Shown: in pieces, positions 26,058 to 55,670 of the stretch
How positions within the stretch are numbered: the stretch's first letter is position 1
How the letters are laid out: every line of letters starts with the position of its first letter
Source of the DNA: Streptantibioticus rubrisoli
GTDB taxonomy: Bacteria; Actinomycetota; Actinomycetes; Streptomycetales; Streptomycetaceae
NCBI RefSeq assembly: GCF_024436055.1
Contig: NZ_JANFNH010000028.1
Coordinates: 1-64,000 of the forward strand
DNA length: 64,000 nucleotides
Direction of reading: 5' to 3'
Notes under the pieces: generated by a model
What the model was told of the DNA's origin: nothing
Seen by the model: only the letters and a program-made list of their open reading frames with translations
Database searches by the model: none
Position numbers and translations under genes: made by a program

Positions 26058-26085
26058 TCGCGTAGTTATGGAGATGGAGAACGTT

Positions 26086-26466: not shown

Positions 26467-26537
26467 CGCTGGTCGTACCACCTGGCCGTCTGTGTCCACC
26501 GTCCGTGATCCACATCTCCCAGCCAGGAGACGCACCG

Positions 26538-28241
26538 TTGAACGCTCCACCGAAACCGAGCTCCGGAACGGCTCATACCGACACGTTCGTACAAGACAAC
26601 CTGCCGCCGGAATCACTGCAACCGGAATTCCTCTTCGACGAGCCCGCGGTGCGCTTCCCGGCTCGCCTCAACTGCGCCGCGGAGTTGGTCGACCGCGCGG
26701 TCGGGCCCGCGGGATGGGCGGATCGGCTGGCGATGCTCTCGCCCGAGGGCGTGCGCTGGACGTACGCGGAGCTGGACGCCGTGGTCTCCCGGATCGCCCA
26801 TGTGCTCACCGAGGACATGGGTCTGGTGCCCGGCAACCGGGTCCTGCTCCGTGGCGTCAACAGTCCGCAGATGTCGGCCGTCTGGCTGGCGGTGATCAAG
26901 GCGGGCGGGGTGGTCGTCACCACCATGCCGCTGCTGCGCACCAAAGAGCTCGTCTACGTCATGGAGAAGGCGCGCATCAGCCACGTGCTGTGCGAACGCG
27001 CCCTTGACGCCGAGATGGTCGCGGCGGCCGCGCGGGCCCGTACCGGCGGCGCGCCCCGGATGATGTTCTTCCGCGACGAAACGGAGTCCGGTCTTGAGCA
27101 TGCCATGGCGGCCAAGCCCGACCGGTTCACCGCGGTCGACACGGCGGCCACCGACCCCTGCCTGATCGGCTTCACCTCGGGGACCACCGGAGCGCCCAAG
27201 GCGACGGTGCACTCACACCGCGACGTGATGGCCATCTGCAACTCCTTCCCGAGGCATGTCCTCAAGGCCACCTGCGACGACCGGTTCATCGGATCGCCGT
27301 CGCTGGCGTTCACCTACGGTCTGGGTGGACTGCTGCTGTTCCCGCTGCACGTGGGGGCCTCGACGGTGCTGCTCGACCGGGGCGCGCCGAGCCATCTGGC
27401 CAGGGCGATAGGCGAGTTCAAGGCCACCATCTGCTTCAGCGGACCGACGGCGTACCGGATGATCGCCGCCGACCGGGAGCAGCACGACCTGTCCTCGCTG
27501 CGCGAGTGCGTCTCGGCCGGTGAGGCACTGCTGCCGGTGACCCGCAAGCTGTGGAAGCAGCACACCGGCATCGACCTGATCGACGGCCTCGGCTCCACCG
27601 AGATGCTGCACATCTTCATCTCGATGCGCGGTGAGGAGGGTCTGAACCGGCCGGGCGCCATCGGCCGGGCCGTCCCCGGCTACCGGACCGCCGTGCTCGA
27701 CGAGGCGGGCCAGCCGCTGCCGCCGGGTGAGGTCGGCAGGCTCGCCGTGAAGGGACCCACCGGGTGCCGCTACCTCGATGACGAACGGCAGAAGGACTAC
27801 GTCCGGGAGGGCTGGAACATCACGGGCGACGCCTGCTGGGCGGACGAGGACGGCTATCTGTACTACCACGCCCGGGTCGACGACATGATCGTCTCCGCGG
27901 GGTACAACATCTCGCCCGCCGAGGTCGAGGACGCCCTGCTCGCCCACCCCGCGGTGGCGGAGTGCGCAGTGGTCGGCGTGCCCGACAGCGAACGCGGCTC
28001 CCTCGTCCAGGCCCATGTGGTCCTGGCCGACGGGCACCGGCCGTCCGGCCAACTCGCCGAGGAGCTCCAGAAGTTCGTCAAGGAGTCGATCGCGCCCTAC
28101 AAGTACCCGCGCGCCATCGAGTTCCGCGCGGAGTTGCCAAGGGCGGAGACGGGAAAGATCCAGCGTTTCCGGCTGCGTGCGGCGGTCGGTACCCAGGAGC
28201 CGAAAGAGGCGGTCAGTGCACCAGGAACCCATGGGAACTGA
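26538..28241 (+). CDS. 2-aminobenzoate/benzoate-CoA ligase-like enzyme
   Basis: 567 residues of the class I adenylate-forming superfamily. The N-terminus FVQDNLPPES...RLNCAAELVDRAV matches the start of the 2-aminobenzoate-CoA ligase group. Core motifs are FTSGTTGAPKATVHSH (A3, about 210), GLGSTEML (A5, about 354), the GDACW (A7) and DDMIVSAGYNI (A8) hinge, and the catalytic Lys in ETGKIQRF near the end. It should make anthraniloyl-CoA or another aryl-CoA. TTG 26538 has AGGAGA at 8-base spacing. It is the first gene of an operon with the thioesterase (11-bp overlap) and the second adenylate-forming enzyme. Anthranilate synthase downstream supports the substrate; benzoate or hydroxyanthranilate remain possible. 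Confidence 0.82.
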   Translation: MNAPPKPSSGTAHTDTFVQDNLPPESLQPEFLFDEPAVRFPARLNCAAELVDRAVGPAGWADRLAMLSPEGVRWTYAELDAVVSRIAHVLTEDMGLVPGNRVLLRGVNSPQMSAVWLAVIKAGGVVVTTMPLLRTKELVYVMEKARISHVLCERALDAEMVAAAARARTGGAPRMMFFRDETESGLEHAMAAKPDRFTAVDTAATDPCLIGFTSGTTGAPKATVHSHRDVMAICNSFPRHVLKATCDDRFIGSPSLAFTYGLGGLLLFPLHVGASTVLLDRGAPSHLARAIGEFKATICFSGPTAYRMIAADREQHDLSSLRECVSAGEALLPVTRKLWKQHTGIDLIDGLGSTEMLHIFISMRGEEGLNRPGAIGRAVPGYRTAVLDEAGQPLPPGEVGRLAVKGPTGCRYLDDERQKDYVREGWNITGDACWADEDGYLYYHARVDDMIVSAGYNISPAEVEDALLAHPAVAECAVVGVPDSERGSLVQAHVVLADGHRPSGQLAEELQKFVKESIAPYKYPRAIEFRAELPRAETGKIQRFRLRAAVGTQEPKEAVSAPGTHGN

Positions 28242-28719
28242 GAGAACCGGCCAAGCCGGATTCAGGCAGGACAAGCAGATCTGGTTCCACCACTGCGACC
28301 CGGCGGGCATCGTCTTCTACCCGCAGTACCTGCTGCTGATGAACGAGGTGCTGCAGGACTGGTTCCAGACCGCCCTCGGAGTCGACTACGCGGGGCTGTT
28401 CGCCGAGCGCCGGATCGGCATCCCCACCATTCGCCTGGAGTGCGACTTCCTGGCCCCCAGCAGGCTCGGCGACACGGTGGCCTTCACCCTGACCGTGCAG
28501 CGGATCGGCACGTCCTCGTTCGAGCTGCGCTTCGAGTGCACGGGTCAGGAGCCGCAGGACGTGCGGGTCAGGATCCGGGCGGTCCTGGTGACCATGTCGC
28601 TGGACGACCACCGGTCGGTTCCCATTCCGGAAGACATCAGGAAGGCCATGGAGCAGTACTGCGCGCCGTCGCAGGAATCCCGCGAAGCGTCCAACGTGAA
28701 AGAGGAAGAAGCCAAATGA
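28231..28719 (+). CDS. acyl-CoA thioesterase (4HBT/FcbC-YbgC hot-dog fold)
   Basis: 162 residues with the hot-dog active-site segment HHCDPAGIVFYPQYL (about 20-34), where the Asp is the catalytic residue of the 4-hydroxybenzoyl-CoA thioesterase group, and IPTIRLECDFLAPSRLGD downstream. It should hydrolyse an aryl- or acyl-CoA. ATG 28231 has CAGGA five bases upstream and overlaps the ligase end; GTG 28216 is possible. Its stop overlaps the next start (ATGA). Next to an aryl-CoA ligase it could proofread primers or release a free acid after modification on CoA. Confidence 0.88.
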   Translation: MGTERTGQAGFRQDKQIWFHHCDPAGIVFYPQYLLLMNEVLQDWFQTALGVDYAGLFAERRIGIPTIRLECDFLAPSRLGDTVAFTLTVQRIGTSSFELRFECTGQEPQDVRVRIRAVLVTMSLDDHRSVPIPEDIRKAMEQYCAPSQESREASNVKEEEAK

Positions 28720-30275
28720 CGACTGATCTGTTGGAGCTCGACGGTCTGGGTGCCGGGAACTTCTTCCGGTTGGCCGCCGCCTCGGCGTCGGCCGCCGCGA
28801 AGAGCGTCATCGTGCTCGACCGGCCCTACCGGGACCCGGCCGGAGGGGTCCACAACGAGCTGACCCTGGCCGAGCTCGACGAGCTGACCGACCGGGTGGC
28901 GAGCGGCTTCTACCGTGATGGGATCCGGCCCAAGGACCCGGTGGCGGTGTTCGTGGCGGAAAGCGTGCGCTACCTCGTCCACTACATCGCGCTCACCAAG
29001 ATCGGCGCGATTCCGGTCTTCCTCAACAGCCAGCTGGCGCCGGACATCGCGGCCCGGTTCATCAGCAACGTCGGCGCGGTCGCCGTGGTCTCTGACGCCG
29101 ACCGGCTGACCGAGGACCGGGTGGGCCTGCCGTACTACGCGCAGGAGCCGTACGGCACCGAGCCGTTCAAGGTCTTCACCCACCAGGACAGCGACCCCGC
29201 CCTGATCGCGCACACCTCCGGTACCACCGGTGTGCCCAAGGCCGTGCAGTTCAACCACGGCGGGTTCTTCTACGGCATCAAGCGGCAGATCAAGGCCGAT
29301 CTCGGTAGCCGTATCCTCTCCGTGCTGCCGCAGAGCCACGGCTCCGCGATCTCGGTGCTGATGTCATCGGTCGCCCGTGGCGCCACGGTGCTGCTGGCCA
29401 CCGACCGCGAACCGCACAGCCTGGCCGCCGCCATCCAGGTCTTCCGTCCGCACCTCGTCGCGGGCTTCCCCAAGACCTTCGTCGACCTGTGCCGGATCGA
29501 CCTGGACTCCTACGACTTCGGTTCGGTCTCCCGCTGGATGTCCACCGGCGACGCCAACCACGAGCGGCACATCAGGAAGCTGGTCAAGCTCGGCAACCAC
29601 ATCGACCGGGACGGTGTGCGGCGTCCCGGCTCGCTGTTCATCGACAACTTCGGCTCGTCCGAGTTCGGCTTCGCGATGTTCCGCACCGTCCACACGCCGA
29701 CCAGCAACCGCTACGGGCGGTGCATAGGCAAGCCGTTCGCCTGGGTGGACGTGCAGATCTTCGACGCCGACGACGAGCCGGTGCCGCCGATGACCGTGGG
29801 CCGTCTCGCGCTGAAGTCGCCCACCGTCACGGCCGGTTACTGGAACAACTCGGTGCTCAGCGAGAAGAACCGGGTGCGGGGCTACTGGCTGACCGGCGAT
29901 CTCGCCTACCGGGACGAGGACGGCTTGGTCTACCACGTCGACCGCACCACCGACCGCATCGTCACCCGGCAGGGCGTCATCTACAGCACCCAGACCGAGG
30001 AGTTGATCCTGCGCCGCTTCCCCGAGGTCTTCGACTGCACGCTGGTCGGCACCGAGGGGGCGGGCAAGGGCGAGGAGAAGCTGGTGCTCACCGTCGACCT
30101 GGCCGATCCCGACATCGACCTGGTGGACCTGCGCGGGCGGATCAACACCCTGCTCGCGCAGGAGGGCCAGCCGCTGGTCCAGACGATCCTGGCCAAGTCG
30201 GGCGAGGAGCACGTGGGCATCACCGGCAAGGCACTGAAGCGCACGATGCGCACCGTCTACGCCGACAAGTCGTAA
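28716..30275 (+). CDS. class I adenylate-forming enzyme, candidate CreM-type diazotase
   Basis: 519 residues. AMP-binding motifs are present: HTSGTTGVPKAVQFNHG (about 165), NFGSSEFG (A5, about 312), GYWLTGDLAY (A7), DRIVTRQGV (A8) and a C-terminal Lys in GITGKALKRTM. It is not closely like the neighbouring aryl-CoA ligase; HGSAIS replaces the usual aromatic-acid pocket sequence. In cremeomycin and avenalumic acid pathways an adenylate-forming homologue uses ATP and nitrite to diazotise an aromatic amine. With CreE- and CreD-like genes 2.4 kb downstream this is the best candidate for that step. Coupled to the thioesterase by ATGA. Alternatively it loads an acyl group onto CoA or ACP. Confidence 0.75.
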   Translation: MTTDLLELDGLGAGNFFRLAAASASAAAKSVIVLDRPYRDPAGGVHNELTLAELDELTDRVASGFYRDGIRPKDPVAVFVAESVRYLVHYIALTKIGAIPVFLNSQLAPDIAARFISNVGAVAVVSDADRLTEDRVGLPYYAQEPYGTEPFKVFTHQDSDPALIAHTSGTTGVPKAVQFNHGGFFYGIKRQIKADLGSRILSVLPQSHGSAISVLMSSVARGATVLLATDREPHSLAAAIQVFRPHLVAGFPKTFVDLCRIDLDSYDFGSVSRWMSTGDANHERHIRKLVKLGNHIDRDGVRRPGSLFIDNFGSSEFGFAMFRTVHTPTSNRYGRCIGKPFAWVDVQIFDADDEPVPPMTVGRLALKSPTVTAGYWNNSVLSEKNRVRGYWLTGDLAYRDEDGLVYHVDRTTDRIVTRQGVIYSTQTEELILRRFPEVFDCTLVGTEGAGKGEEKLVLTVDLADPDIDLVDLRGRINTLLAQEGQPLVQTILAKSGEEHVGITGKALKRTMRTVYADKS

Positions 30276-30288: not shown

Positions 30289-30332
30289 ACGGGCGACGGG
30301 GTGGTCCGCACGGGCCACCCCGTCGCCCGTTT
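30289..30332 (+). terminator. strong terminator after the ligase operon
   Basis: ACGGGCGACGGGGTGG (30289-30304) pairs perfectly over 16 bp with 30315-30330, followed by TT. It separates the ligase-thioesterase-diazotase operon from trpEG. Confidence 0.85.
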
Positions 30333-30360
30333 CCGGCCACATCCAGACGAGGGAGTGTCA

Positions 30361-32571
30361 ATGTCCACGCTCAAGACGTCCGAGGGACGACCGGACGGCA
30401 TGGGCGCCGACGGGCGGTGGAGCACGGCGGGCGGAGTGCGGATCACCCGCGAGAGTCGGCGGCTGCCGGACGCCCGTACCGCTCGGGTCCGGTTGGAGAA
30501 CGCCCTGGACGAGCGCCGCGGGATGCTCGTCTTCCGCGGCCATGACCGGGCCGTCGGCTTCGTGGATCCGCCGGTCGAGATCGCCTTCGCCGGTGGCCGC
30601 CTTACGGTGCGGGCGCTGAACGAGCGGGGTGCCGTGCTGCTGCCCGTGTTGCGCGGCGCGCTGGACGGCGTGCTGGGCGAACCGGGGGAGGTGCCCGGCG
30701 GGTTCGGCGGTCGGGTGCTCGCCACGCAGGCCGAGACCTTCGCCGAGGAGGACCGCACACGGCATGCCGGTGTCTTCTCCGCACTGCGTGCGCTGATCGC
30801 CGCGATGGCCGCGCCCGACGACCAACTACTGGGCCTTTACGGTGCGTTCGGTTACGACCTGATCTTCCAGTTCGAGCAGATCGAGCTGCACCAGCCGCGC
30901 CGCCCGGACGACCGGGACCTGGTGCTGCAACTGCCTGACGAGATCCTTGAGTTCGATCTGCGCCGCGACGAGGTGGTCCGCCACCGGTACGAGTTCGCCA
31001 CCGAGCGAGCGCACACGACCGGACTGCCCAGGCGGACCTCCGCCGAACCGTTCGTGCCCGGCACCACCACCGAGCCGCGCGACCACCGCCCGGGCGAGTA
31101 CGCCGAGGTGGTCGAGCGGGCGAAGCCGCTGTTCCGGTCGGGGGACCTGTTCGAGGTCGTGCCAGGGCAGCTCTTCCGGCGCGGCTGCGTACAGCCGCCC
31201 TCGGAGCTCTTCCGTCGGCTGTGGCAGCGCAATCCCGCGCCGCACAGCCTGCTGGTGAACCTCGGCGAAGGGGAGTACCTCGTCGGCGCCTCGCCGGAGA
31301 TGTTCGTCCGGGTCCGGCACGACCACGGCACGGACGGTGCCGGGCTGCTGGTCGACTCCTCGCCGATCAGCGGGACCATCGCCCGTGGCCGCGACGCGCT
31401 GGAGGACGCGGCCCAGGTGCGCGCACTGCTCGGCTCCCTGAAGGAGGAGTCCGAGCTGACGATGTGCACCGACGTGGACCGCAACGACAAGGCCAGGGTG
31501 TGCGTGCCCGGTTCGGTACGGGTCACCGGCCGCCGCACCATCGAGATGTACTCCGCCCTCATCCACACGGTGGACCACGTCGAGGGGCGGATCCGCCCGG
31601 GTCTGGACGCGCTGGACGGCTTCCTCGCCCACCTGTGGGCGGTCACCGTCACCGGTGCCCCCAAGCTGGCCGCGGTGGAGTTCCTGGAGCGCGAGGAGCG
31701 CTCGCCGCGGCGTTGGTACGGCGGTGCGGTCGGCAGCGTCGGGTTCGACGGCTCGCTCGACACCGTCCTGACGCTGCGCACCATCCAGATACGCGACGGG
31801 GTCGCCACCGTTCGCGCCGGTGCGACGCTGCTGCACGACTCGTCGCCGCAGGACGAGGAGGCCGAGACCGAGTTGAAGGCCAAGGCCCTGCTGGAGGTGC
31901 TCGACCCACCCGCCCCGGTCGCCCCGACGATGGCGGTGACCCGCTCCGCGCCCGGGGCGGGAGTGCGCATCCTGCTCGTCGACCACCGGGACTCCTTCGT
32001 CCACTGCCTGGCCGACTACCTGCGGCAGACCGGTGCCGAGGTCACCACATACCGCAGTGGCCGCCATCTTCCGCTGCTGGAGCGGGAGTTGCCGGACCTG
32101 CTGGTCCTGTCGCCGGGGCCGGGCCGCCCGGCGGACTTCCAGCTGGCGGCCACCCTCAAGGAGGCCGAGCGGCTGGGCCTGCCGGTCTTCGGCGTCTGCC
32201 TGGGACTGCAGGGTCTGGTGGAGCACTACGGCGGTCAGCTCGGTGTGCTCGACGAACCGGTGCACGGCAAGGCGTCACGGGTGCGGGTGACCGACCCGGA
32301 CTGCGGGCTGTTCGCCGGTCTGCCGCAGACGTTCGAGGTCGGCCGCTACCACTCGCTGTACGCCGAAGCCGCGGCGCTGCCCGAGGAGTTGCGGGTGACC
32401 GCGACGGCCGATGACGGCGTGGTGATGGCCCTGGAGCACGTGAGCAGGCCGCTGGCCGCCGTCCAGTTCCACCCTGAGTCGATCATGACCGCCGGTGGCC
32501 GGGCCGGTCAGCGTGTCGTCGACAACGCCGTAGCGGCTCTCGGCCGCCGCTTGCTGCCCGCACCGCGGTGA
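30361..32571 (+). CDS. trpEG: fused anthranilate synthase (TrpE-TrpG type)
   Basis: 736 residues joining the chorismate-binding component I (about 1-520) to a class I glutamine amidotransferase (about 535-736). The synthase half has SSPISGTIARG, the TDVDRNDKARVC helix and WAVTVTGAPK, and ends with AGATLLHDSSP. The amidotransferase has FGVCLGLQG (Cys nucleophile) and QFHPES (His, Glu). Length and wording fit the fused Rhizobium/Streptomyces anthranilate synthases better than the shorter PhzE (aminodeoxyisochorismate synthase), though that product cannot be excluded. ATG 30361 follows GGGAG. A second copy beside secondary-metabolism genes indicates dedicated anthranilate supply. Confidence 0.88.
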   Translation: MSTLKTSEGRPDGMGADGRWSTAGGVRITRESRRLPDARTARVRLENALDERRGMLVFRGHDRAVGFVDPPVEIAFAGGRLTVRALNERGAVLLPVLRGALDGVLGEPGEVPGGFGGRVLATQAETFAEEDRTRHAGVFSALRALIAAMAAPDDQLLGLYGAFGYDLIFQFEQIELHQPRRPDDRDLVLQLPDEILEFDLRRDEVVRHRYEFATERAHTTGLPRRTSAEPFVPGTTTEPRDHRPGEYAEVVERAKPLFRSGDLFEVVPGQLFRRGCVQPPSELFRRLWQRNPAPHSLLVNLGEGEYLVGASPEMFVRVRHDHGTDGAGLLVDSSPISGTIARGRDALEDAAQVRALLGSLKEESELTMCTDVDRNDKARVCVPGSVRVTGRRTIEMYSALIHTVDHVEGRIRPGLDALDGFLAHLWAVTVTGAPKLAAVEFLEREERSPRRWYGGAVGSVGFDGSLDTVLTLRTIQIRDGVATVRAGATLLHDSSPQDEEAETELKAKALLEVLDPPAPVAPTMAVTRSAPGAGVRILLVDHRDSFVHCLADYLRQTGAEVTTYRSGRHLPLLERELPDLLVLSPGPGRPADFQLAATLKEAERLGLPVFGVCLGLQGLVEHYGGQLGVLDEPVHGKASRVRVTDPDCGLFAGLPQTFEVGRYHSLYAEAAALPEELRVTATADDGVVMALEHVSRPLAAVQFHPESIMTAGGRAGQRVVDNAVAALGRRLLPAPR

Positions 32572-32675: not shown

Positions 32676-34646
32676 TTGGAGACCGGACAGTTGGAGATCT
32701 GCATCGTTGGCGCCGGACCCCGCGGCCTGTCGGTGCTGGAGCGACTGTGCGCCTGTGAGCGAAAGTCACCCTCGGCCGACCGGGTCACGGTGCACCTGGT
32801 CGACCCCGACTCGCCAGGACCCGGCCGGGTCTGGCGCACCGGGCAGTCCGGGGTCCTGCTGATGAACACCGTGGCGTCCCAGGTCACCGTGTTCACCGAC
32901 GACAGCGTGGAGATCGGCGGCCCGATCGAGGAGGGACCGAGCCTGTACGAATGGGCTCGGTCCCTGGCGGTGCACGGCGCGGCCGGGGGCTGCTCAGCCG
33001 AGACGCTGGCCGAGGCCCGCCGTCTGGGGCCCGACTCCTATCCGACCCGCGCCTTCTACGGCCACTACCTGGAATGGTGCTACCGGCGGATCGTCGCCGG
33101 AGCGCCGGACCACCTCGCGATCCGTCCGTGGCGGCTACGGGCGGTGGCGCTGTGGGACGGCGAGGAGGGACCCGGCGGGTCGCAGACCGTGCGGCTCGCG
33201 GACGGCAGCCGGTTGACCGGGCTGTCGGCGGTGGTGCTGGCCCAGGGCCATGTGGACGTGGTGCCGTCGGCGGCCGAGCAGCGGCTCGGCGCGTTCGCGG
33301 GCCGGCACGGTCTGCGGTACGTCCCACCGGCCAATCCGGCCGACCTCGACCTCTCCGCGGTCGCCCCGGGTGAAACGGTCCTGCTGCGTGGCCTCGGGCT
33401 GAACTTCTTCGACCACATGGCCCTGTTCACCATCGGCCGCGGCGGTACGTTCGAGCGGGTCGAGGACCGGCTCGTCTACCGGCCGTCCGGCAGGGAGCCG
33501 CGGATGTACGCGGGTTCGCGCCGCGGCGTCCCGTACCACGCGCGAGGGGAGAACGAGAAGGGTCCGCACGGCCGCTACCTGCCGAAGCTGCTCACCGTCG
33601 GATGGATCGAGGCCCGGCGCGCCAGGTCGAGCGCTGGTGAACCGGCCGTCTTCCGAACCGAGTTGTGGCCGCTGATAGCCAAGGAGGTGCAGAGCGTCTA
33701 CTACGCGGCTCTGCTGGCCGACTGCCAACCGGACGCGGACGCGGCCGACTTCACCGAGCGCTACCTGGCCACGGCGGACGAGGCCGCCGAGCAGGCGCTG
33801 CTGGACGCCGTGGGCATCCCCGCCGCCGACCGCTGGGACTGGGCGTGGATCGCCCGGCCGTACGGCGACCGCCGGTTCACCGGGCTCGCCGACTTCCAGT
33901 CCTGGCTGCTCGACCACCTCGACCGCGATGTACGCGAGGCCAGGGCGGGCAACGTCAGCGGCCCGCTCAAGGCGGCCCTCGACGTCCTGCGCGACCTGCG
34001 CAACGAGGTCCGCCTCGCGGTCGACCACGGCGGGCTGGACGGCGACTCGCACCGCGACGATCTGGACGGCTGGTACACCCCGCTCAACGCGTTCCTGTCC
34101 ATCGGCCCGCCGGTCTCCCGCATCGAGGAGATGATCGCCCTCATCAACGCGGGCGTCCTCACCGTGATCGGCCCGGGCCTGGCGGTGGACACCGAGGAGG
34201 ACGGCACCCAGCCACCGGCGTTCGTGGCGACGTGCGACATTCCGGGTGTGACGGTGCGCGCCTCCGTACTGATCGAGGCCCGGCTGCCCGAGCCGGACCT
34301 GCGCCGCACCGCCGACCCCCTGCTGCGGCAGCTGATGGAGAGCGGCCAGTGCCGCCCGTACCGGATCCGCTCGGCAGGCGGTGGCGAGTACGAGACGGGC
34401 GGCCTCGCGGTCTCCGAGCGCCCGTACCACCTCATCGACGCGGCGGGGCGCCGCCATCCGCGGCGGTTCGCCTACGGCGTCCCCACCGAGTCGGTGCACT
34501 GGGTCACCGCCGCGGGCATCCGCCCCGGGGTCGGTTCGGTCACCCTGGCCGACTCCGACGCCATCGCCCGTACCGTGCTCGCCCTGCCGCCCGTCACCGA
34601 GCGGGAAGCGGTGCCGGGCGGCGGCCGGACGGAGGTGGCGCGATGA
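32676..34646 (+). CDS. creE: CreE/FzmM-like FAD-dependent nitrosuccinate synthase
   Basis: 656 residues. The N-terminal dinucleotide fold CIVGAGPRGLSVLERL (about 9-24) is the NAD_binding_9 type with the G-P-R-G variant. A second cofactor segment lies in ETVLLRGLGLNFFDHM (about 232-247). The long helical C-terminal half is as in the CreE group. CreE converts L-aspartate to nitrosuccinate, the first step of the aspartate-nitrosuccinate nitrous-acid pathway. The assignment leans on the next gene, a CreD-like lyase coupled by ATGA, a pairing specific to this pathway. TTG 32676 has TGGAGA five bases upstream. It shares an operon with creD and probably trpEG. Confidence 0.82.
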   Translation: METGQLEICIVGAGPRGLSVLERLCACERKSPSADRVTVHLVDPDSPGPGRVWRTGQSGVLLMNTVASQVTVFTDDSVEIGGPIEEGPSLYEWARSLAVHGAAGGCSAETLAEARRLGPDSYPTRAFYGHYLEWCYRRIVAGAPDHLAIRPWRLRAVALWDGEEGPGGSQTVRLADGSRLTGLSAVVLAQGHVDVVPSAAEQRLGAFAGRHGLRYVPPANPADLDLSAVAPGETVLLRGLGLNFFDHMALFTIGRGGTFERVEDRLVYRPSGREPRMYAGSRRGVPYHARGENEKGPHGRYLPKLLTVGWIEARRARSSAGEPAVFRTELWPLIAKEVQSVYYAALLADCQPDADAADFTERYLATADEAAEQALLDAVGIPAADRWDWAWIARPYGDRRFTGLADFQSWLLDHLDRDVREARAGNVSGPLKAALDVLRDLRNEVRLAVDHGGLDGDSHRDDLDGWYTPLNAFLSIGPPVSRIEEMIALINAGVLTVIGPGLAVDTEEDGTQPPAFVATCDIPGVTVRASVLIEARLPEPDLRRTADPLLRQLMESGQCRPYRIRSAGGGEYETGGLAVSERPYHLIDAAGRRHPRRFAYGVPTESVHWVTAAGIRPGVGSVTLADSDAIARTVLALPPVTEREAVPGGGRTEVAR

Positions 34647-36058
34647 GCACCTCCCAAGTGCCGTGCCCCGATGCCCCGTTGGACGCCGGGTTGCTGTCGC
34701 CGGTCCGCGCGGGCACGGCGGTCGAACGGGCGACCTGCGACCGGGCGTGGCTACAGGCCATGCTCGACGCGGAAGCGGCGCTCGCCAGGGCACAGGCCAG
34801 CCTCGGCACCCTGCCGGAGCGCGCCGCCAGGGCCATCACCGCCGCCGCCGACGCCGACCGTCTCGACCTGCGCGCCGTGGCGGTGGAAGCCCGGGAGACC
34901 GCCAACCCGGTCGTCGGCCTGGTGCGGGCGTTCACCGCGGTGGTGGCCGCCGAGTGCCCGGACGCCGCCGAGTACGTGCACCGCGGCTCCACCAGCCAGG
35001 ACATCCTGGACACCGGTGCCATGCTGGTCGCCACCCGGGCACTGCGGCTCATCCGTTGCGATCTCGCCCGCGCCGCAAGCGCGTTGGCGACGCTCGCCGC
35101 CAGGCACCGGGAGACCCCGATGGCGGGTCGCACGCTGGCCCTGCACGCGGTGCCGACCACCTTCGGGTTGAAGGCGGCGGGCTGGCGTGAGCTGGTGCTC
35201 GACGCGGACGAGCGGCTGGGGCGGCTGGCCGACGGCGGGTTGCCGGTCGCGCTCGGCGGTGCGGCCGGGACACTCGCCGGGTACCTGGAGTACGCCCGCA
35301 TCGGTGCCGGTCACAACGGCGTCGTGCCGGACGCCTACCTCGACGAGCTCACCGCGGCCTTCGCCGAGCAGACCGGACTGGCCGTGCCCGTACTGCCGTG
35401 GCATGCGCTGCGCACCCCGGTCGCGGACCTCGCCGCCGCCCTCGCCCACACCGCGGGCGCCCTCGGCAAGCTGGCCGTGGACGTCCAGGTGCTGGCCAGG
35501 ACGGAGATCGCCGAGGCCACCGAACCCGGCGCCGCCGGGCGCGGTGCCTCCTCCGCCATGCCGCACAAACGCAACCCGGTACTGGCCACCCTGGTCCGCT
35601 CCGCCGCCCTGCAGGTGCCCGCGCTCGCCGCCGTGCTGACGCAGTGCCTGGCCACCGAGGACGAGCGGTCCGCGGGAGCCTGGCACGCCGAGTGGCAGCC
35701 GCTGCGCGAGTGCCTGCGGCTGGTCGGTGGCGCGGCGTCCTGCGCCGCGGAACTCGCCGAAGGGCTGTGCGTGAACCCGCAGCGGATGCGCGCCAACCTG
35801 GAGCTCACCGGCGGCCAGATCGTCTCCGAGCGCGCCAGCGCGGTGCTCGCGCCCGCACTGGGCAAGGCAGCGGCCAAACGGCTCCTGTCCACCGCGTCCC
35901 AGCAGGCGGCACAGTCCGGCACACCGCTGGGCGATGTGCTCGCCGCCCTGCCCGAGGTCAGGGAAGTGCTGAGCCCGCAGGAACTGGTCGACCTGCTCGA
36001 CCCCGCCCACTACACCGGGGCGGCCGGTGCGCTGGTCGACCGGGCGCTGCGACGGTGA
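34643..36058 (+). CDS. creD: CreD-like nitrosuccinate lyase (fumarase/aspartase superfamily)
   Basis: 471 residues of the fumarase/aspartase superfamily, closest in form to 3-carboxymuconate-cycloisomerase-like members. The three conserved regions are visible: ARETANPVVGLVRAF (about 83-97), HRGSTSQDILDT (about 113-124) and the signature GASSAMPHKRNP (about 301-312) with the catalytic serine loop. CreD releases nitrous acid from nitrosuccinate, leaving fumarate. The ATG overlaps the creE stop, so both are made together. Adenylosuccinate or argininosuccinate lyase roles are unlikely given this partner. A GC-rich hairpin follows before the DAHP synthase gene. Confidence 0.85.
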   Translation: MSTSQVPCPDAPLDAGLLSPVRAGTAVERATCDRAWLQAMLDAEAALARAQASLGTLPERAARAITAAADADRLDLRAVAVEARETANPVVGLVRAFTAVVAAECPDAAEYVHRGSTSQDILDTGAMLVATRALRLIRCDLARAASALATLAARHRETPMAGRTLALHAVPTTFGLKAAGWRELVLDADERLGRLADGGLPVALGGAAGTLAGYLEYARIGAGHNGVVPDAYLDELTAAFAEQTGLAVPVLPWHALRTPVADLAAALAHTAGALGKLAVDVQVLARTEIAEATEPGAAGRGASSAMPHKRNPVLATLVRSAALQVPALAAVLTQCLATEDERSAGAWHAEWQPLRECLRLVGGAASCAAELAEGLCVNPQRMRANLELTGGQIVSERASAVLAPALGKAAAKRLLSTASQQAAQSGTPLGDVLAALPEVREVLSPQELVDLLDPAHYTGAAGALVDRALRR

Positions 36059-36130
36059 GGCCAGCTTCGGTGCGCCCGCTACCAGCCAACGCCGTCAACC
36101 GCCTTCTCCGCAGCCAAGACAAGGGGGATG

Positions 36131-36164: not shown

Positions 36165-37556
36165 ATGACTACCAACCAACCGAGTCAGCCCGGCCGTGAA
36201 CCGGGCCGCCCCACCGCCTCCCGAAGCGCCGCGCGGACCGTCCGCTCCTGGCGCGGCCTGCCCGCCGCCCAGCAGCCTGACTGGCCTGACCCGGCGGCCC
36301 TGGCCGCCACCACCGCCGAGCTGAGCGCCCTTCCACCGCTGGTGTTCGCCGGGGAGTGCGACCTGCTGCGCCGCCGACTGGCGGCCGTCGCACGCGGCGA
36401 GGCGTTCGTCCTCCAGGGCGGCGACTGCGCGGAGACGTTCGACGCCGTCTCAGCGGAGCAGATCCGCGACAAGCTGCAGACGATGCTGCAGATGTCGGCG
36501 GTGCTGGCCTACGGCGCGGCGCTGCCGGTGGTGAGCATCGGCCGGATCGCCGGTCAGTACGCCAAGCCGCGTTCCGAGCCGGTCGAGACGCGGGACGGGG
36601 TCACGCTTCCCACCTACCGCGGTGACGCCGTCAACGGCCTGGACTTCACGGCGCGGTCACGCACTCCGGACCCGGACCGGCTCAAGCGGATGTACCAGTC
36701 ATCGGCCGCCACACTGAATCTTCTGAGGTCCTTCACCGCGGGCGGATTCGCCGACGTGAGCCAGGTGCACGAGTGGAACCGGGAATTCGTCGCGGATTCC
36801 CCGGCCGGTCGCCGGTACGAGGAACTGGCCGCGGAGATAGACGCCGCGCTGCGCTTCATGCGGGCCTGCGGCGCCGACCCGGCCACCATGCGTTTCGACG
36901 AGTTCTTCACCAGCCACGAGGCGCTGCTGCTGGACTACGAATCCGCGCTGACCAGGGTCGACAGCCGCACCGGGAAGCTGTACGACCTGTCCGGGCACAT
37001 GGTGTGGATCGGCGAGCGGACCCGCCAACTGGACGGCGCCCACATCGAGTTCGCCGCCCGGGTGGCCAATCCGGTCGGGGTGAAACTCGGACCGGACGCC
37101 ACCGCGGATACCGCCCTGGCGCTCATCGACCGTCTTGATCCGAATCGGGAACCTGGCCGGTTGATGTTCATTACCCGCATGGGCGCGGATAAGATAAGGG
37201 ATGTGCTACCGGAACTGGTCGCGAAGGTAGCGGTTTCGGGGGCACAGGTCGTCTGGTCCTGCGATCCGATGCATGGCAACACGTTCAAGTCGGGGGGTTA
37301 CAAAACCCGCCGACTTGACCACATAGTCGACGAGGTGAAGGGGTTCTTCGAGGTGCACCGCGCCCTCGGGACACATCCCGGGGGAATTCACATCGAATTG
37401 ACGGGGGGACATGTGACGGAATGCCTTGGCGGCGCACATGAGGTCACCGACGGGGACCTCCACCTGAAGTACGAGAGCGCATGCGATCCGCGACTGAACC
37501 GGAACCAGTCCCTCGACCTCGCTTTCCTCGTCGCCGAGATGTTCCGCGGCGCCTGA
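36165..37556 (+). CDS. class II DAHP synthase (3-deoxy-7-phosphoheptulonate synthase)
   Basis: 463 residues, the usual length of class II (plant/actinomycete) DAHP synthases, which join PEP and erythrose 4-phosphate at the entry of the shikimate pathway. Typical segments are FVLQGGDCAETF (about 76-87, metal-binding Cys), VSIGRIAGQYAKPRS (about 123-137), WIGERTRQLDGAHIEF, MGADKIRDVLP, SCDPMHGNT and GGIHIELTGGHVTECLGG. A cluster-borne copy usually escapes normal aromatic feedback and feeds an aromatic precursor, here anthranilate via the fused synthase upstream. It is the last of the trpEG-creE-creD-DAHPS series. The ribosome site is weak. Confidence 0.95.
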   Translation: MTTNQPSQPGREPGRPTASRSAARTVRSWRGLPAAQQPDWPDPAALAATTAELSALPPLVFAGECDLLRRRLAAVARGEAFVLQGGDCAETFDAVSAEQIRDKLQTMLQMSAVLAYGAALPVVSIGRIAGQYAKPRSEPVETRDGVTLPTYRGDAVNGLDFTARSRTPDPDRLKRMYQSSAATLNLLRSFTAGGFADVSQVHEWNREFVADSPAGRRYEELAAEIDAALRFMRACGADPATMRFDEFFTSHEALLLDYESALTRVDSRTGKLYDLSGHMVWIGERTRQLDGAHIEFAARVANPVGVKLGPDATADTALALIDRLDPNREPGRLMFITRMGADKIRDVLPELVAKVAVSGAQVVWSCDPMHGNTFKSGGYKTRRLDHIVDEVKGFFEVHRALGTHPGGIHIELTGGHVTECLGGAHEVTDGDLHLKYESACDPRLNRNQSLDLAFLVAEMFRGA

Positions 37557-37633: not shown

Positions 37634-39136
37634 ATGTCTCTTGCCACGACGCGCAGTTCAGGTGTCGCACAGCACGCCCGTATGCCTCCGCAACGTCCCA
37701 CTCTGGTGCTGATGTGCGTCTGCGTGCTCACCCTGCAGTCGCTGGTCGCGGCGATCAACCTCGCGATAGCCAAGCTCTCGGCGAGCAGTCTGCATCCCAG
37801 TTCCTCGCAGATGCTGTGGATCGTCGACGCCTATGTGATCGTGTTCGCGGGGCTGCTGATACCCGCCGGAGCGCTCGGCGACCGGTTAGGCCGCAAAGGC
37901 CTGCTGCTGCTGGGAATCGGCGTCTTCTGCGCGGGGGCCGCGATGAGTGCGGCGGCGTCCGGTGTCGCCGTGCTCATCGCGGGGCGCGGCCTGGCCGGGG
38001 CCGGTGCGGCACTGGTGATGCCGGCCTCGATGTCGGTGCTGCTGCACGTGGTGCCCGCTGAGCGCCGCCCCTCCGCGATCGCCAGTTGGAGCGCGGCCGT
38101 CGCCATCGGCGGCATCGTCGGCAACGCCGGGGGCGCGGTGATCCTGCAGTACTTCTCCTGGCGGGTGCTGTTCTGGGTGTACGTGCCCGTCTCGCTGGTG
38201 CTGCTGTCGGTGGTGGCGCTGGTGACCCCGCGTACCCGCCGCAACCCGGCGTCGCTCGACCTGGTCGGGTCCGTGCTGCTGGTCCTCGGGCTGGTGCCGC
38301 TGCTGTTCAGCATCATCGAGGGGCCGGAGCTCGGCTGGGGGTCGGTGCCGGTGCTCGGCGGCTTCGCCGCCACCGTGGTTCTGCTGACCGCCTTCACCCG
38401 CTACGAACTGCGCACCGCCCACCCGCTGCTCGACCCGCGGCTGTTCAAGCTGCCGCGTCTGCGTTCCGGCACCGTCGGTGTCGGCGCCTCGTTCTTCGGC
38501 ATGTTCGCGCTGTTCTACGTCAACGCCCAGTTCCTGCAGTACGTCAAGGGTTTCTCACCGTTGCAGACCGGGCTGGCCATCGTGCCGATGGCGGTCGGGA
38601 TGATGGTGGTCACCCAGGCGAGCGTGAGCTGGGCCCGGCGGATCGGTGCGCGGACCACCATCGGCATCGGACTGCTGCTGCTGGTGGTCGGGCTACTGCT
38701 GCTGTCCACGGCGACGCGGGCCACGCCGTACCTGCTCTACACCGTCTACCTCATGGTGATGGCGCTCGGTGTCGGCATGGCCATGCCGTCGCTGTCAGCG
38801 GGCGTGGTCTCCTCGCTGCCGCAGCACCAGGCGGGCGTGGGTTCCGGACTCAACAGCGCGGCCCGGGAGTTGGGGGCGGCGCTGGGCATCGCCACCATCG
38901 GTACCGTGCTCAGCATCCGGTTCACCGATCAGCTGCCGTCCGCGCTGGCCGGGCACGTCCACTCCGCGTCGGCCGCGCTGGCCGAGGCGGCGAAGCACGG
39001 TGCCGCACTGCACTCCGAGGTGGTGGTCGACTTCGCCAACGCGGTCGCCGTCGGCTACCGGGTCACCGCCGGGCTGCTGTTCGTTCTCGCCGTGATCGCG
39101 TTCTCGGGGTTCGGCGCGCGCCGGGCCGCTCGGTGA
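37634..39136 (+). CDS. MFS exporter, DHA2 (14-TM) family
   Basis: 500 residues with 13-14 hydrophobic segments and the DHA2 signatures: GDRLGRKGLLL (motif A, about 84-94), RGLAGAGAALVMPAS (motif B, about 119-133), and the antiporter-type GGIVGNAGGAV (motif C, about 158-168). It probably exports the cluster product or an intermediate by proton exchange. ATG 37634 follows AGGA. Codon 85 is TTA (37886-37888), so translation may be delayed until bldA is expressed. It is 77 bases from the DAHP synthase gene and may be read through from it. Confidence 0.93.
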   Translation: MSLATTRSSGVAQHARMPPQRPTLVLMCVCVLTLQSLVAAINLAIAKLSASSLHPSSSQMLWIVDAYVIVFAGLLIPAGALGDRLGRKGLLLLGIGVFCAGAAMSAAASGVAVLIAGRGLAGAGAALVMPASMSVLLHVVPAERRPSAIASWSAAVAIGGIVGNAGGAVILQYFSWRVLFWVYVPVSLVLLSVVALVTPRTRRNPASLDLVGSVLLVLGLVPLLFSIIEGPELGWGSVPVLGGFAATVVLLTAFTRYELRTAHPLLDPRLFKLPRLRSGTVGVGASFFGMFALFYVNAQFLQYVKGFSPLQTGLAIVPMAVGMMVVTQASVSWARRIGARTTIGIGLLLLVVGLLLLSTATRATPYLLYTVYLMVMALGVGMAMPSLSAGVVSSLPQHQAGVGSGLNSAARELGAALGIATIGTVLSIRFTDQLPSALAGHVHSASAALAEAAKHGAALHSEVVVDFANAVAVGYRVTAGLLFVLAVIAFSGFGARRAAR

Positions 39137-39185: not shown

Positions 39186-40106
39186 TCAGATGGTCAGTAC
39201 CACCTTGCCGTTGACCTGGCGCTGGGCGAGAGCGCGCAGCGCCGGTTCGGCGTCGGTCCATGGGGCGACCGTGGCCACCTGAGGGTCGAGCAGGCCGTCG
39301 GCCACCCGCTGGACGAGGAAGCCGAGGTCCCGGGTGACCGGGTGCGCCGGCAACTCGTGGAAGAGGTGGACATAGCGCAGTTGGACGCCCGGCCTGGCGT
39401 GGCCCCAGTCCACCGGCAGGTTGAGTTCGCTGCGGGTGGTGTTGCCGTAGACGATGACCTTGCCACCGGGCACCACCAGGCGGTAGGCCCGGTTCAGTAC
39501 CTGCCCGCCCACGCTGTCGACCAGTACGTCGACCGGCCCGGTCTCCTCCGCGTCGTAGGTGCTGACGGCCGCCGCGCCGAGTTCCCGCAGGCCCTTGGCG
39601 CGCTCCGCGGAGCCGACCCAGGCGACCACCCGGGCTCCGGAGGCGGCCGCCAGTTGGACCGCCATCCGGCCGACGCCGCCGCCCGCACCGGTGACCAGCA
39701 CCGTACGGCCGAGGAGCAGCCCGGCGTGGCGCAGCGCGTAGAGCGCGGTGAGGCCGACGACCGGGATCGCGGTGGCGGCGGTCCAGTCCAGATCGTCCGG
39801 TACCGGGGTGAGCCGGGCGGTGTCCGCCGCCGCCAGTTCGCTCCAGCCCGCGCCGTCGGCCAGGCCGGTGACCCGGGTTCCGGCCGCTGGTCCGCTGCCG
39901 TCGGCCGCAGGACGCAGCACGGTGCCCGCGATGTCCCAGCCGAGCTGGGAACCGGGCGGGAGCATGGCCATCATGGACAGCTCACCGCGGTTGACGGCCA
40001 CCGCGCGCACCTCGACCAGCGCCTGACCGGGGCGCGGTTCGGGCTCCGGCACATCGGCCATGCGCAGCCCGAAGCCACTGTCTTCCGTCGTGACGAGTGC
40101 CTTCAC
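39186..40106 (-). CDS. zinc-independent quinone-oxidoreductase-type MDR dehydrogenase
   Basis: 306 residues, medium-chain reductase of the quinone-oxidoreductase type. The GroES-like N-domain has AVNRGELSMM in place of the zinc-ligand set, and the Rossmann part has VLVTGAGGGVGRMAVQLA (about 135-152) for NADPH. It should reduce an enone or quinone. GTG 40106 follows AAGGTGG. It converges with the exporter and is separate from the oxidase operon on the same strand. A tailoring role on the polyketide quinone is plausible. Confidence 0.88.
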   Translation of the reverse strand: MKALVTTEDSGFGLRMADVPEPEPRPGQALVEVRAVAVNRGELSMMAMLPPGSQLGWDIAGTVLRPAADGSGPAAGTRVTGLADGAGWSELAAADTARLTPVPDDLDWTAATAIPVVGLTALYALRHAGLLLGRTVLVTGAGGGVGRMAVQLAAASGARVVAWVGSAERAKGLRELGAAAVSTYDAEETGPVDVLVDSVGGQVLNRAYRLVVPGGKVIVYGNTTRSELNLPVDWGHARPGVQLRYVHLFHELPAHPVTRDLGFLVQRVADGLLDPQVATVAPWTDAEPALRALAQRQVNGKVVLTI

Positions 40107-40278: not shown

Positions 40279-41886
40279 TCATTCGGTGACGAAGTCGGCC
40301 ATCATGGCCATGTCCTCGTGCTCCAGGTTGTGGCAGTGCAGCATGAACTTGCCCGGGTAGTCGGTGAATCGGGTGACGACCTCGACCGCCTCCGACGGGC
40401 GCAGGCTGACCGTGTCCTTCCAACCCGCGTCGTACGGACCCGGATCGGCGTCGTTGCGCGAGACCACCTGGAAGTGCTCCAGGTGCAGGTGGACGGGGTG
40501 ATGGAAGTCGCTGACGAACCGCCACACCTCGGTGGTGCCGAGTTTCGGCCGGGCCAGGGTGCGACCGGGCTGGTACAGCTCGCCGTTGATCGTCCAGCCG
40601 CCCTTCTCGCTCTGCTGGAAGGCGAAGGTACGGGTCACCGCCGCCTTGCCCGGGTCCAGTGCGGCCAACTCGCTGAGCTGGTCGGGCACATGGGAGTCGT
40701 CGGCGGGTGGGCGCCCGGACGGGGAGAGGTCGAACCGCATCACCTCGCTGGTGGGCCCCGAGCCGAACCGGTTGATCAGCCGCACCTTCGTGCCGGGACG
40801 GTAGCGGGAGAAGTCGACCACCACGTCGAGGCGTTCGGCGGGGGAGAGCTCCAGGGCGTCGTGCCGCACCGGCCGCGCCAGCAGCCCGCCGTCGCCGCCG
40901 ATCTGTACGAACGCCGCGCCGCCCGGCGGTTGCGGGCTCAACTCCAGCCGGTAGTCGCGGGCGTTGGAGGCATTCAGCAGCCGCAGCCGGTAGCGCACCC
41001 GGTCGGCCTGGAGCACCGGCCATGGCGCTCCGTTGACCAGCACGACATCGCCGAGCACCCCGTTGGTGTACGCGTCGGTCACTCCGGCCCTGTGCATGGC
41101 GGGGTCGATCGCCGGGTACCGGAAGGAGCCGTCCGCGGCGAAGGACCGGTCGGCGATCATCAGGGGGATGTCCCGTTCGCCGCGCGGGAGCGGTAGGGCG
41201 TCCTCCTCGTCGTCGTGGACGAGGTGGAAGCCCGCGAGCCCCTTCCAGACACCCGGTCCGGTGAAGCCCATCCGGTGGTCGTGGTACCACAGGGTCGCCG
41301 CCCGCTGGTTGACCGGATAGGTGTAGCTGCGCTCGCCGTGGGCGATGTCACCGGACATCCGCGGCATGCCATCCATCCCCGGCATGTCCATACCGGCCAT
41401 CGGATCGCCGCCACCGGACACCGGCATGACCAGGTCGACCGGGTAGCCGTCGCTGGCCGCCGGGGTGTGGCCGCCGTGCAGATGCACCACGACCGGCTGC
41501 GGCAGCTCGTTGCGGTGCCGCACGACGGTGCGCCGTCCGGAGCGCGAGACGATCGTCGGCCCCGGGAAACTGCCGCCGTACGTCCAGGCCCTGGTGCGCA
41601 GCCCGGGCAGGATGTGCAGGTCGGCCTGGTGCTGGGTGATCTCGTAGCTGTCGCTCGTGCCGTCGGAACGCGCCGGTTCGAGCACCGGCGGTACCGGCAG
41701 CGGCACCTGGTACGGCCTGGGCAGCGGCACCTGGCTGGGCAGCAGATGGCCCGGCCTGCCCTGGCCCTGCAGCAACGGCCAGCCGACGGCGGCGATCGCG
41801 CCGACGCCCACCACCGCGGAGCCCGCGCCGATGAACCGGCGCCGGGTCAGCCGCCGGGCCGCCGCGGGTGTGCCGCCCGCACTCAT
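40279..41886 (-). CDS. Tat-exported multicopper oxidase
   Basis: 535 residues. A Tat signal (RRLTRRRFIGAGSAVVGVGA, about 11-30) is followed by three cupredoxin domains with all copper motifs: HLHGGH (about 137), WYHDHRMG (about 200), HPVHLHLEHF (about 463) and HCHNLEHEDMAMM near the end. The M ligand in HxxHxxM fits type 1 copper. A Met-rich insert GMDMPGMDGMPRM (about 165-177) recalls CueO. It could be a copper-handling cuprous oxidase or, like phenoxazinone synthase, couple aminophenols or phenols into dimers outside the cell. ATG 41886 overlaps the upstream membrane gene (ATGA). Confidence 0.93.
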   Translation of the reverse strand: MSAGGTPAAARRLTRRRFIGAGSAVVGVGAIAAVGWPLLQGQGRPGHLLPSQVPLPRPYQVPLPVPPVLEPARSDGTSDSYEITQHQADLHILPGLRTRAWTYGGSFPGPTIVSRSGRRTVVRHRNELPQPVVVHLHGGHTPAASDGYPVDLVMPVSGGGDPMAGMDMPGMDGMPRMSGDIAHGERSYTYPVNQRAATLWYHDHRMGFTGPGVWKGLAGFHLVHDDEEDALPLPRGERDIPLMIADRSFAADGSFRYPAIDPAMHRAGVTDAYTNGVLGDVVLVNGAPWPVLQADRVRYRLRLLNASNARDYRLELSPQPPGGAAFVQIGGDGGLLARPVRHDALELSPAERLDVVVDFSRYRPGTKVRLINRFGSGPTSEVMRFDLSPSGRPPADDSHVPDQLSELAALDPGKAAVTRTFAFQQSEKGGWTINGELYQPGRTLARPKLGTTEVWRFVSDFHHPVHLHLEHFQVVSRNDADPGPYDAGWKDTVSLRPSEAVEVVTRFTDYPGKFMLHCHNLEHEDMAMMADFVTE

Positions 41887-55639: not shown

Positions 55640-55670
55640 CGCCCGCCCGGCCCCCGACAAGGAGATGACG

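Follow-up and report, generated by a model that had tools for sequence, protein, structure and literature searches.

The locus described here raises the question of why genes for a nitrous acid-forming enzyme pair lie within a type II polyketide synthase (PKS) cluster, and on which amine the nitrite would be used. The pair consists of a CreE-type flavoprotein and a CreD-type lyase of Streptantibioticus rubrisoli (GCF_024436055.1). The window, that is, the whole stretch of DNA analyzed, comprises positions 1-64,000 of contig NZ_JANFNH010000028.1, which is 84,442 bases long. Our analysis suggests that the region 26505-39136 is one anthranilate-diazotizing operon inside a rishirilide-type cluster and that its 2-diazobenzoate product is coupled to the polyketide; we put the probability of this reading at roughly 60%. 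The genes of this region are all on the + strand, in the order CoA ligase, thioesterase, diazotase, TrpE-TrpG, CreE, CreD, 3-deoxy-D-arabino-heptulosonate 7-phosphate (DAHP) synthase, and major facilitator superfamily (MFS) exporter (Table 1).

The two open reading frames (ORFs) of the pair lie exactly where an earlier note on this DNA had placed them (32676-36058), and the ATGA overlap that joins them was confirmed. CreE starts at TTG 32676, with GGAG six bases upstream, and stops at TGA 34646; translation might instead begin at an in-frame GTG at 32664. CreD starts at ATG 34643 within the overlap, and its protein contains RGASSAMPHKRNP. The FAD protein had been described as NAD_binding_9-type with a G-P-R-G loop; Pfam placed this domain at residues 10-192 (135 bits), and a G-A-G-P-R-G loop is present. 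Its sole match in the PDB at E ≤ 0.001 was 8cp2, the L-aspartate N-hydroxylase of Streptomyces sp. V2 (PubMed Central (PMC) paper PMC10404684). With residue roles (flavin site, entry chamber, tunnel mouth) taken from the same paper, all nine aspartate-binding and flavin-site residues (R13, N62, R266, R276, R409, R412, N413, R416, and R577 in 8CP2 numbering) were found to be kept. R593 is kept too and the peripheral R597 is replaced by Ala, giving 10 of the 11 positions looked up.

The lyase, earlier assigned to the fumarase superfamily, matched Pfam Lyase_1 and ADSL_C and scored 785 bits against the curated NCBIfam nitrosuccinate lyase model NF052556 (cut-off 650), the next model being carboxymuconate cycloisomerase at 411 bits. 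In the PDB, 5xny (CreD) scored 598 bits and the next match 292. All 17 named positions are kept, including the proposed nitrite fingerprint E49/H118/D125/H253/R341, the loop SSxMPxKRNP, and Leu170, which is His in non-nitrating members (PMC13411527). An adenylosuccinate lyase or a carboxymuconate cycloisomerase was ruled out by the NCBIfam scores, the 5xny match, and the kept residues. The database matches of the pair are far beyond chance, and the predicted formation of nitrite from aspartate is well supported at the family level. Both the comparison with characterized homologues and the residue-level tests agree with the nitrous-acid reading given in the earlier note.

Diazotization, which that note had proposed, is strengthened by a neighbor that it did not contain, a putative ATP-dependent aryl-amine diazotase. 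The best NCBIfam model for this protein was NF058622 (AvaA6, 3-aminoavenalumate diazotase) at 404 bits, followed by a model at 175 bits. In the PDB, the four best sequences scored 353-275 bits, and ordinary acyl-CoA ligases followed at 113 bits; one of the best matches, 8tf7, is presumably Tri17. In a tree that took in no characterized CreM, Aha11, or AvaA6 sequences, 48 diazotase-like rows parted from three CoA ligases with 100/100 support. Membership of the window protein in the ATP-dependent diazotase superfamily (AvaA6/CreM/Tri17 type) is thus well supported by sequence comparison. In the same tree, it formed a clade of five on a long stem (100/100 support) with proteins from S. melanogenes (72% identity), Streptomyces sp. 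ERV7 (72%), S. musisoli (70%), and a Nocardia metagenome-assembled genome (MAG; 56%). The search of the genome collection for close relatives used short peptide patterns, which reach close kin only; a Sphingomonas MAG protein (L010, 22%) was left out of the clade.

This clade is rare in the genomes searched. Of the 394 family genomes, 120 held a diazotase homologue at E ≤ 1e-70; a level beyond 1e-110 was reached only in the window's own genome (100%) and in G319 (taken as S. musisoli; 70%), and identity was at most 42% in the rest of the matches listed. Such a homologue was detected in 14 of 394 genomes of the class, all at no more than 40% identity except the window's own, and identity to the less related diazotases examined was 32-42%. 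A tblastn search of a plasmid collection gave matches in 1701 of its 72,556 records; identity stayed below 60% throughout, with 36.9% in the best row listed, and none is thus as close as the Streptomyces members of the clade. Residues specific to the clade occupy 34 positions scattered over the protein; five of them, at 311-321 around the motif GSSE, may line the acceptor pocket.

The other genes of the operon point to anthranilate. The fused TrpE-TrpG protein, whose likely start is ATG 30361, lies above two curated cut-offs, in agreement with the earlier mention of anthranilate genes nearby. The top PDB match of the ligase was 4wv3, "Anthranilate-CoA ligase", which we take to be AuaEII of aurachin; benzoate-CoA ligase followed at 257 bits, and the score against the NCBIfam benzoate-CoA ligase family (339 bits) lies under its cut-off of 375. 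The best PDB match of the thioesterase was 3ck1, a "putative thioesterase" (98 bits), named aryl-CoA thioesterases scoring at most 47 bits. Given this gene content, the diazotized amine is probably anthranilate.

Comparison with other genomes was consistent with this. In all four other clade members, the diazotase is accompanied by counterparts of the window's ligase and thioesterase with 53.8% identity or more; in S. musisoli the ligase is about 6 kb away from the diazotase, beside TrpEG. With the window counted, TrpEG is linked to the diazotase in three of five clade members and CreE-CreD in two of five. The genes of the Nocardia MAG are ordered DAHP synthase, ligase, thioesterase, diazotase, TrpEG, a 72-codon ORF, CreE, and CreD, and the contig ends 2 kb further on. 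Its DAHP synthase is of class I, whereas that of the window is of class II, and the two belong to different Pfam families. The filling of one role by two classes of enzyme is good evidence, at the level of gene content, that the operon was built to make and diazotize anthranilate. We also read 20 neighborhoods (20 kb each) of less related diazotases, a non-random pick mostly from the top of the match lists. CreE and/or CreD were found in 7 of these 20 and a ketosynthase (KS)-like gene in 18, whereas a thioesterase or TrpEG match at E ≤ 1e-5 was found in none, and their ligases were at most 32% like that of the window.

On this basis, a route can be proposed. DAHP synthase and TrpE-TrpG would supply anthranilate from the shikimate pathway; CreE would convert L-aspartate to nitrosuccinate, from which CreD would release nitrite and fumarate; and the diazotase would activate nitrite with ATP and move it onto the aryl amine, which may be anthranilate or its CoA ester. 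The presence of both a ligase and a thioesterase suggests either anthraniloyl-CoA as the substrate or a CoA activation step immediately before or after diazotization. Free benzenediazonium-2-carboxylate is unstable, and a thioester would mask the ortho carboxylate. Azo or Japp-Klingemann coupling of the aryl diazonium could then take place at a nucleophilic carbon, an anthrone C-10 or a 1,3-dicarbonyl carbon, of the rishirilide-type tricycle. 2-Diazobenzoate, or its CoA ester, and an anthracene-type polyketide would thereby give an aryl-hydrazone or azo compound of the katorazone/murayaquinone C kind. The enzyme families of the operon and the PKS type are well supported by sequence, and we infer from them the amine substrate, the role of the CoA step, the coupling, and the product.

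The polyketide partner had been called daunorubicin-like, which holds for the priming KSIII, of DpsC type, and fails for tailoring, as the three oxygenases are rishirilide-type. We take the serine of the KSIII motif QLSNGG to be present in DpsC as well. Homologues of RslO1, RslO4, and RslO9 are all present together with KSIII, acyltransferase (AT), and the minimal PKS (PDB names 7bip = RslO1, 7bio = RslO4, and 9qm3 = RslO9 from PMC8093152 and PMC12903851). The SDR and SnoaL-like proteins include candidates for orthologues of RslO5, RslO8, RslC2, and RslC3. Since the likeness to DpsC is confined to the priming KSIII and the oxygenases are RslO1/RslO4/RslO9-like, the cluster as a whole (about 20-65 kb) is well supported as a rishirilide-type type II PKS by its predicted proteins. 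The starter of DpsC and AknE2 is propionate, and RslK4 has also been compared with DpsC (PMC7221717). A daunorubicin-like product was rejected because only the priming KSIII fits, and no glycosyltransferase match was obtained among the 40 window proteins scanned with Pfam. The daunorubicin cluster holds glycosyltransferase and deoxysugar genes.

Six related loci in other genomes, 40 kb each, were read around RslO1 homologues of 67-86% identity. The minimal PKS and the bulk of the tailoring genes of the window recur in four of them: G366, where KS-alpha is 82% identical, and G103, G054, and G046, where it is 70-71% identical; among these, AT is present only in G366 and KSIII in none. G396 combines KSIII, AT, and the minimal PKS (KS-alpha 80%) with some of the tailoring genes, and G163 has the tailoring block with no type II PKS match. 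None of the six contained a match to TrpEG, CreE, CreD, the thioesterase, or DAHP synthase, and the only diazotase/ligase match was one of 25-30% in G103, a level that any ligase gives. The genes flanking the operon in the window, the reductase at 22352 and the quinone reductase at 39186, are 79 bp apart in G366. The arrangement is most simply read as a rishirilide-type cluster that the diazo operon entered or in which it was assembled.

Table 1. Predicted genes of the window and of the bases that follow it. Percentages for related loci (G366, G103, G054, G046, G396, G163) are identities to the window proteins.
Feature	Coordinates	Strand	Evidence
APH-type phosphotransferase-like protein, probable left edge of polyketide part	19954..21024	-	Pfam APH; 53-54% in G366, G396
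Metallo-beta-lactamase-fold hydrolase	21138..22073	+	Pfam; 56-63% in 5/6 related loci (not G163)
Short-chain dehydrogenase/reductase (SDR)/3-oxoacyl-ACP reductase, left of operon	22352..23074	+	Pfam
ORF of 256 aa between reductase and operon	23140-23910	-	No Pfam match
Acyl-CoA carboxylase carboxyltransferase, malonyl-CoA supply	24480..26057	+	Pfam Carboxyl_trans 686 bits
Acyl-CoA carboxylase epsilon subunit	26068..26310	+	Pfam ACC_epsilon
Aryl-CoA ligase, probably anthranilate-CoA ligase; first gene of operon	26505..28241	+	PDB 4wv3 288 bits
4HBT hot-dog thioesterase, overlaps ligase and diazotase genes	28231..28719	+	Pfam 4HBT_2
ATP-dependent aryl-amine diazotase, AvaA6/CreM type, uncharacterized clade	28716..30275	+	NF058622, PDB matches, tree
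Fused TrpE-TrpG anthranilate synthase	30301..32571	+	NF010081 967 bits (cut-off 645), TIGR01815 935 bits (cut-off 739)
CreE-type L-aspartate N-hydroxylase (nitrosuccinate synthase)	32676..34646	+	8cp2 706 bits; 61.5% identity
CreD-type nitrosuccinate lyase	34643..36058	+	NF052556 above cut-off; 70.9% identity to 5xny (S. cremeus CreD)
Class II DAHP synthase, shikimate flux to chorismate	36165..37556	+	TIGR01358 717 bits (cut-off 615)
MFS exporter, last gene of operon	37682..39136	+	Pfam MFS_1
Quinone reductase-like protein, right of operon	39186..40106	-	Pfam; 55-67% in 5/6 related loci
Multicopper oxidase, distantly like o-aminophenol oxidase PhsA	40279..41886	-	Pfam; PhsA model 257 bits (cut-off 950)
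Hemerythrin-like protein	42444..43091	-	Pfam; 50-54% in 4/6 related loci
MFS exporter of polyketide part	43208..44725	-	Pfam; 64-67% in 4/6 related loci
Polyketide aromatase/cyclase	45025..45978	-	Two Polyketide_cyc stretches; 57-69% in 5/6 related loci
Polyketide ketoreductase	46051..46839	-	Pfam; 71-78% in 5/6 related loci
Flavin reductase, probable partner of 50414-51493	46948..47565	-	Pfam Flavin_Reduct
Second APH-type phosphotransferase-like protein	47661..48734	+	Pfam APH; 61-63% in 3/6 related loci
GMC-type oxidoreductase	48855..50336	+	Pfam; 70-81% in 4/6 related loci
RslO1-type luciferase-like monooxygenase	50414..51493	-	PDB 7bip 526 bits, next 115
SDR oxidoreductase	51522..52289	-	Pfam; 75-80% in 5/6 related loci
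SnoaL-like protein	52394..52855	-	Pfam
SnoaL-like protein	52947..53387	-	Pfam
RslO4-type ABM monooxygenase	53440..53808	-	9vah 148 bits, 7bio (RslO4) 106, SnoaB 55
RslO9-type FAD monooxygenase	54017..55639	+	9qm3 600 bits, next enzyme 339
NmrA-like NAD(P)-binding protein	55665..56552	+	Pfam; 62-67% in 5/6 related loci
TetR regulator	56691..57338	+	Pfam
SARP-type regulator (BTAD)	57387..58223	-	Pfam
Phosphopantetheinyl transferase	58665..59411	-	Pfam ACPS
DpsC-type priming ketosynthase III (KSIII), motif QLSNGG	59413..60444	-	PDB 4xs7 424 bits
Priming acyltransferase	60756..61862	+	Pfam Acyl_transf_1; 68% in G366, 58% in G396
KS-alpha of type II PKS	61969..63237	+	Pfam; 82% in G366, 80% in G396
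Chain-length factor	63359..64561 (past window end 64000)	+	74% in G366
Acyl carrier protein (ACP)	64697-64960 (beyond window, same contig)		After chain-length factor

Several observations weigh against an anthranilate-diazotizing operon with a coupled product. The diazotase does not reach the NF058622 cut-off of 975 bits; three other clade members scored 392, 419, and 400 bits, and the protein was therefore not filed as an AvaA6 equivalog. The sole outgroup of the tree consists of the three CoA ligases, which lie on a long branch. Other diazo-forming enzymes are described as needing a hydroxyl ortho or para to the amine, with SpiA7 as the stated exception (PMC11705231), and anthranilate has no such hydroxyl. 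The ligase-thioesterase-diazotase trio can also stand without TrpEG or CreE/CreD beside it. S. melanogenes and ERV7 carry a CreE-CreD pair (63/70% identical) elsewhere in the genome than the trio, and no TrpEG relative at E ≤ 1e-60 was found in either genome; the trio is therefore not bound to act together with TrpEG. In S. musisoli, both the trio and TrpEG are present, yet the best CreE homologue is only 41% identical. Finally, PMC9225364 regards hydrazones of the expected kind as possible handling artefacts, formed as Schiff bases of N-aminoanthranilic acid.

This last point, together with the occurrence of each half elsewhere without the other and the presence of an MFS exporter in each, would fit two pathways that are neighbors by chance, one of rishirilide type and one leading separately to an anthranilate hydrazine, with products that come together by chemistry alone or never. 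We consider this unlikely, because the operon lies inside the cluster rather than at its edge, between polyketide genes that are only 79 bp apart in G366. It is also conceivable that the diazo group is a leaving group, with anthranilate or its CoA ester being diazotized and, as in the formation of avenalumic and p-coumaric acids, losing N2 on subsequent reduction to leave a benzoyl unit with no N-N bond. AvaA6, the best model of the diazotase, acts in such a deamination pathway, and the NmrA-like NAD(P)-binding protein might serve as the reductase, AvaA7 having been likened to sugar epimerases (PMC10777205). However, the NmrA-like gene is kept in five of the six related loci, which have no diazo operon, and is therefore part of the polyketide half; there is no reductase inside the operon; and the KSIII belongs to the type for which propionate is the described starter. 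Loss of the amine in this way thus appears distinctly improbable.

Anthraniloyl-CoA could instead prime the PKS, as in aurachin, with nitrite being kept for a later ring closure such as cinnoline formation. The PKS part has clear relatives with no anthranilate genes in the 40 kb read, G366 among them, and the DpsC-type KSIII does not favor such a starter. Moreover, no aromatic KS match was found in the 20-60 kb read around the trio in the four other genomes. Against these points stand the anthranilate-CoA ligase match and the type II PKS genes in the same cluster, and we regard this use of anthraniloyl-CoA as very unlikely. Removal of the amine and a cinnoline, both of which the earlier note had allowed, are less likely than the hydrazone or azo product proposed above. 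If the anthranilate-diazotizing operon is accepted, a more specific version can be offered tentatively, although we hold it doubtful as a whole. The operon would be a transferable cassette, inserted into a rishirilide-type cluster, that converts anthraniloyl-CoA to 2-diazobenzoyl-CoA, which would be freed by the thioesterase; the diazonium would be coupled in the cell to an anthracene intermediate, and hydrazones like katorazone and murayaquinone C would then be true enzymatic products rather than artefacts of handling.

The RslO1-like monooxygenase was considered as an anthranilate hydroxylase and rejected: homologues of 81-86% occur in loci with no diazo operon, so that it belongs to the polyketide part here. 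In S. musisoli, where a 52% RslO1-like gene lies inside the diazo cluster, this role is still conceivable. Genes like RslO1 were found at E ≤ 1e-90 in 35 of 394 family genomes and the diazotase clade in 2 of 394, and we therefore claim no firm association between the two. S. melanogenes (L097) and ERV7 (L101) have the tailoring block far from the trio, with the luciferase-like monooxygenase at 81% and up to 84% identity to window genes. No type II KS match was found in the 80 kb read around these blocks, and a less similar type II PKS (KS-alpha 69%) occurs elsewhere in both genomes. The multicopper oxidase of the window, to which nothing in the six related loci matched, may carry out a late oxidation.

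Other observations were made on the same gene families. A second CreE/CreD pair, 54/58% identical to that of the window, is present in the same genome (L005:6708-10240; G000:C75). It adjoins an FAD-linked oxidase, an ornithine/aspartate carbamoyltransferase-like protein, and a ThiF-like protein and possibly belongs to another nitrite-using pathway. S. melanogenes (L071:5521-11867) and ERV7 (L072:2534-8905) each have two CreE-like genes close together, about 54% and 33% identical to that of the window, and no CreD match was listed in these two intervals. A diazotase homologue with 37% identity over 98% of its length occurs on Sinorhizobium medicae plasmids (H1-H6). L092 and L093 combine a diazotase homologue (37%) with KS genes (33-41%), next to an aromatic-type KS-alpha (61-62%) and a chain-length factor (44-48%), which is a possible further combination of diazo and aromatic polyketide genes. 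The S. musisoli cluster (L073, L074, L075) contains ORFs of 3561, 2185, and 1739 aa, perhaps a non-ribosomal peptide synthetase/PKS, besides the diazotase, thioesterase, CoA ligase, TrpEG, and a short class II DAHP synthase. It also holds the RslO1-like monooxygenase with a flavin reductase and a mycothiol-dependent nitroreductase homologue, and it may be a peptide-hydrazone pathway. Left of the cluster, the window has what looks like an integrated mobile element (2648-14281) with a tyrosine-type integrase (2648-4096) and an FtsK/SpoIIIE protein (4412-6169). The same apparent element holds a candidate defense protein with Mrr nuclease and nSTAND3 domains (12026-14281; PADLOC PDC-S73, 492 bits), and GC content drops to 58% at 12-16 kb.

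If the proposed reading is correct, the locus shows concretely which genes would build aromatic polyketides bearing a 2-hydrazinobenzoate arm, compounds whose origin is disputed between biosynthesis and artefact, and predicts a dye-like natural product. The diazotase clade may accept an amine without the ortho or para hydroxyl said to be needed by other diazo-forming enzymes, and its constant company of CoA ligase and thioesterase suggests diazotization in a CoA-bound state. Such an enzyme could add a biocatalytic route from plain anthranilate to aryl diazonium reagents.

We compared the operon with known systems, using a literature base that also included PMC9323291, PMC11212599, PMC6295570, PMC5872131, PMC9481585, and PMC9769936. 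Like the earlier note, which knew of no such cluster, we found none described in open-licence PMC papers that combines diazotization genes of the aspartate-nitrosuccinate (ANS) pathway with a rishirilide-type PKS. Cremeomycin and other ANS clusters (CreE, CreD, CreM) resemble the window in the CreE/CreD pair, in which all or almost all of the residues checked are kept, and in a nearby ATP-dependent diazotase; here the amine is probably anthranilate, and genes for a CoA ligase, a thioesterase, and an anthranilate synthase also belong to the operon. In the available descriptions, the avenalumic and p-coumaric acid clusters (ava, cma) likewise have CreE, CreD, and a diazotase of AvaA6 type next to genes of a type II PKS, but their PKSs are highly reducing and work with 3-amino-4-hydroxybenzoic acid (3,4-AHBA), whereas the KS of the window is of the aromatic type by its relatives. 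As amine, 3,4-AHBA was rejected, since none of the 40 window proteins scanned with Pfam gave a match of the AHBA synthase kind.

Penzonemycin (pzm) and tasikamide (aha) are closer in chemistry, since chorismate-derived hydroxyanthranilate units are diazotized by a CreM homologue and Japp-Klingemann coupling to hydrazones is described or proposed. The pzm cluster shares DAHP synthase, anthranilate synthase, CreD, CreE, acyl-CoA ligase, and a CreM homologue with the window. It makes 3-hydroxyanthranilate via an isochorismatase and a dehydrogenase, and no isochorismatase was found among the 40 scanned proteins. The descriptions of pzm and aha that were compared give no aromatic polyketide partner, whereas the operon of the window sits in one. 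The rishirilide (rsl, sxr) and tatiomicin (tat) clusters, as far as described in the sources, share RslO1/RslO4/RslO9-type oxygenases, priming by KSIII and AT, ketoreductases, and cyclases, and sxr also has an in-cluster phosphopantetheinyl transferase, as the window does. The words hydrazone, diazonium, and nitrosuccinate were not found in the open-licence rishirilide papers searched. Katorazone and murayaquinone C, aromatic polyketides with a 2-hydrazinobenzoate hydrazone (PMC9225364, PMC13266690), represent the product class predicted for this cluster and are known as compounds; no gene cluster for their hydrazone arm was found in our searches of open-licence PMC papers. In summary, ANS-dependent diazotization is already known, and what appears to be new, judged from the genes, is the uncharacterized diazotase clade, its CoA ligase/thioesterase pair, and the rishirilide-type partner.

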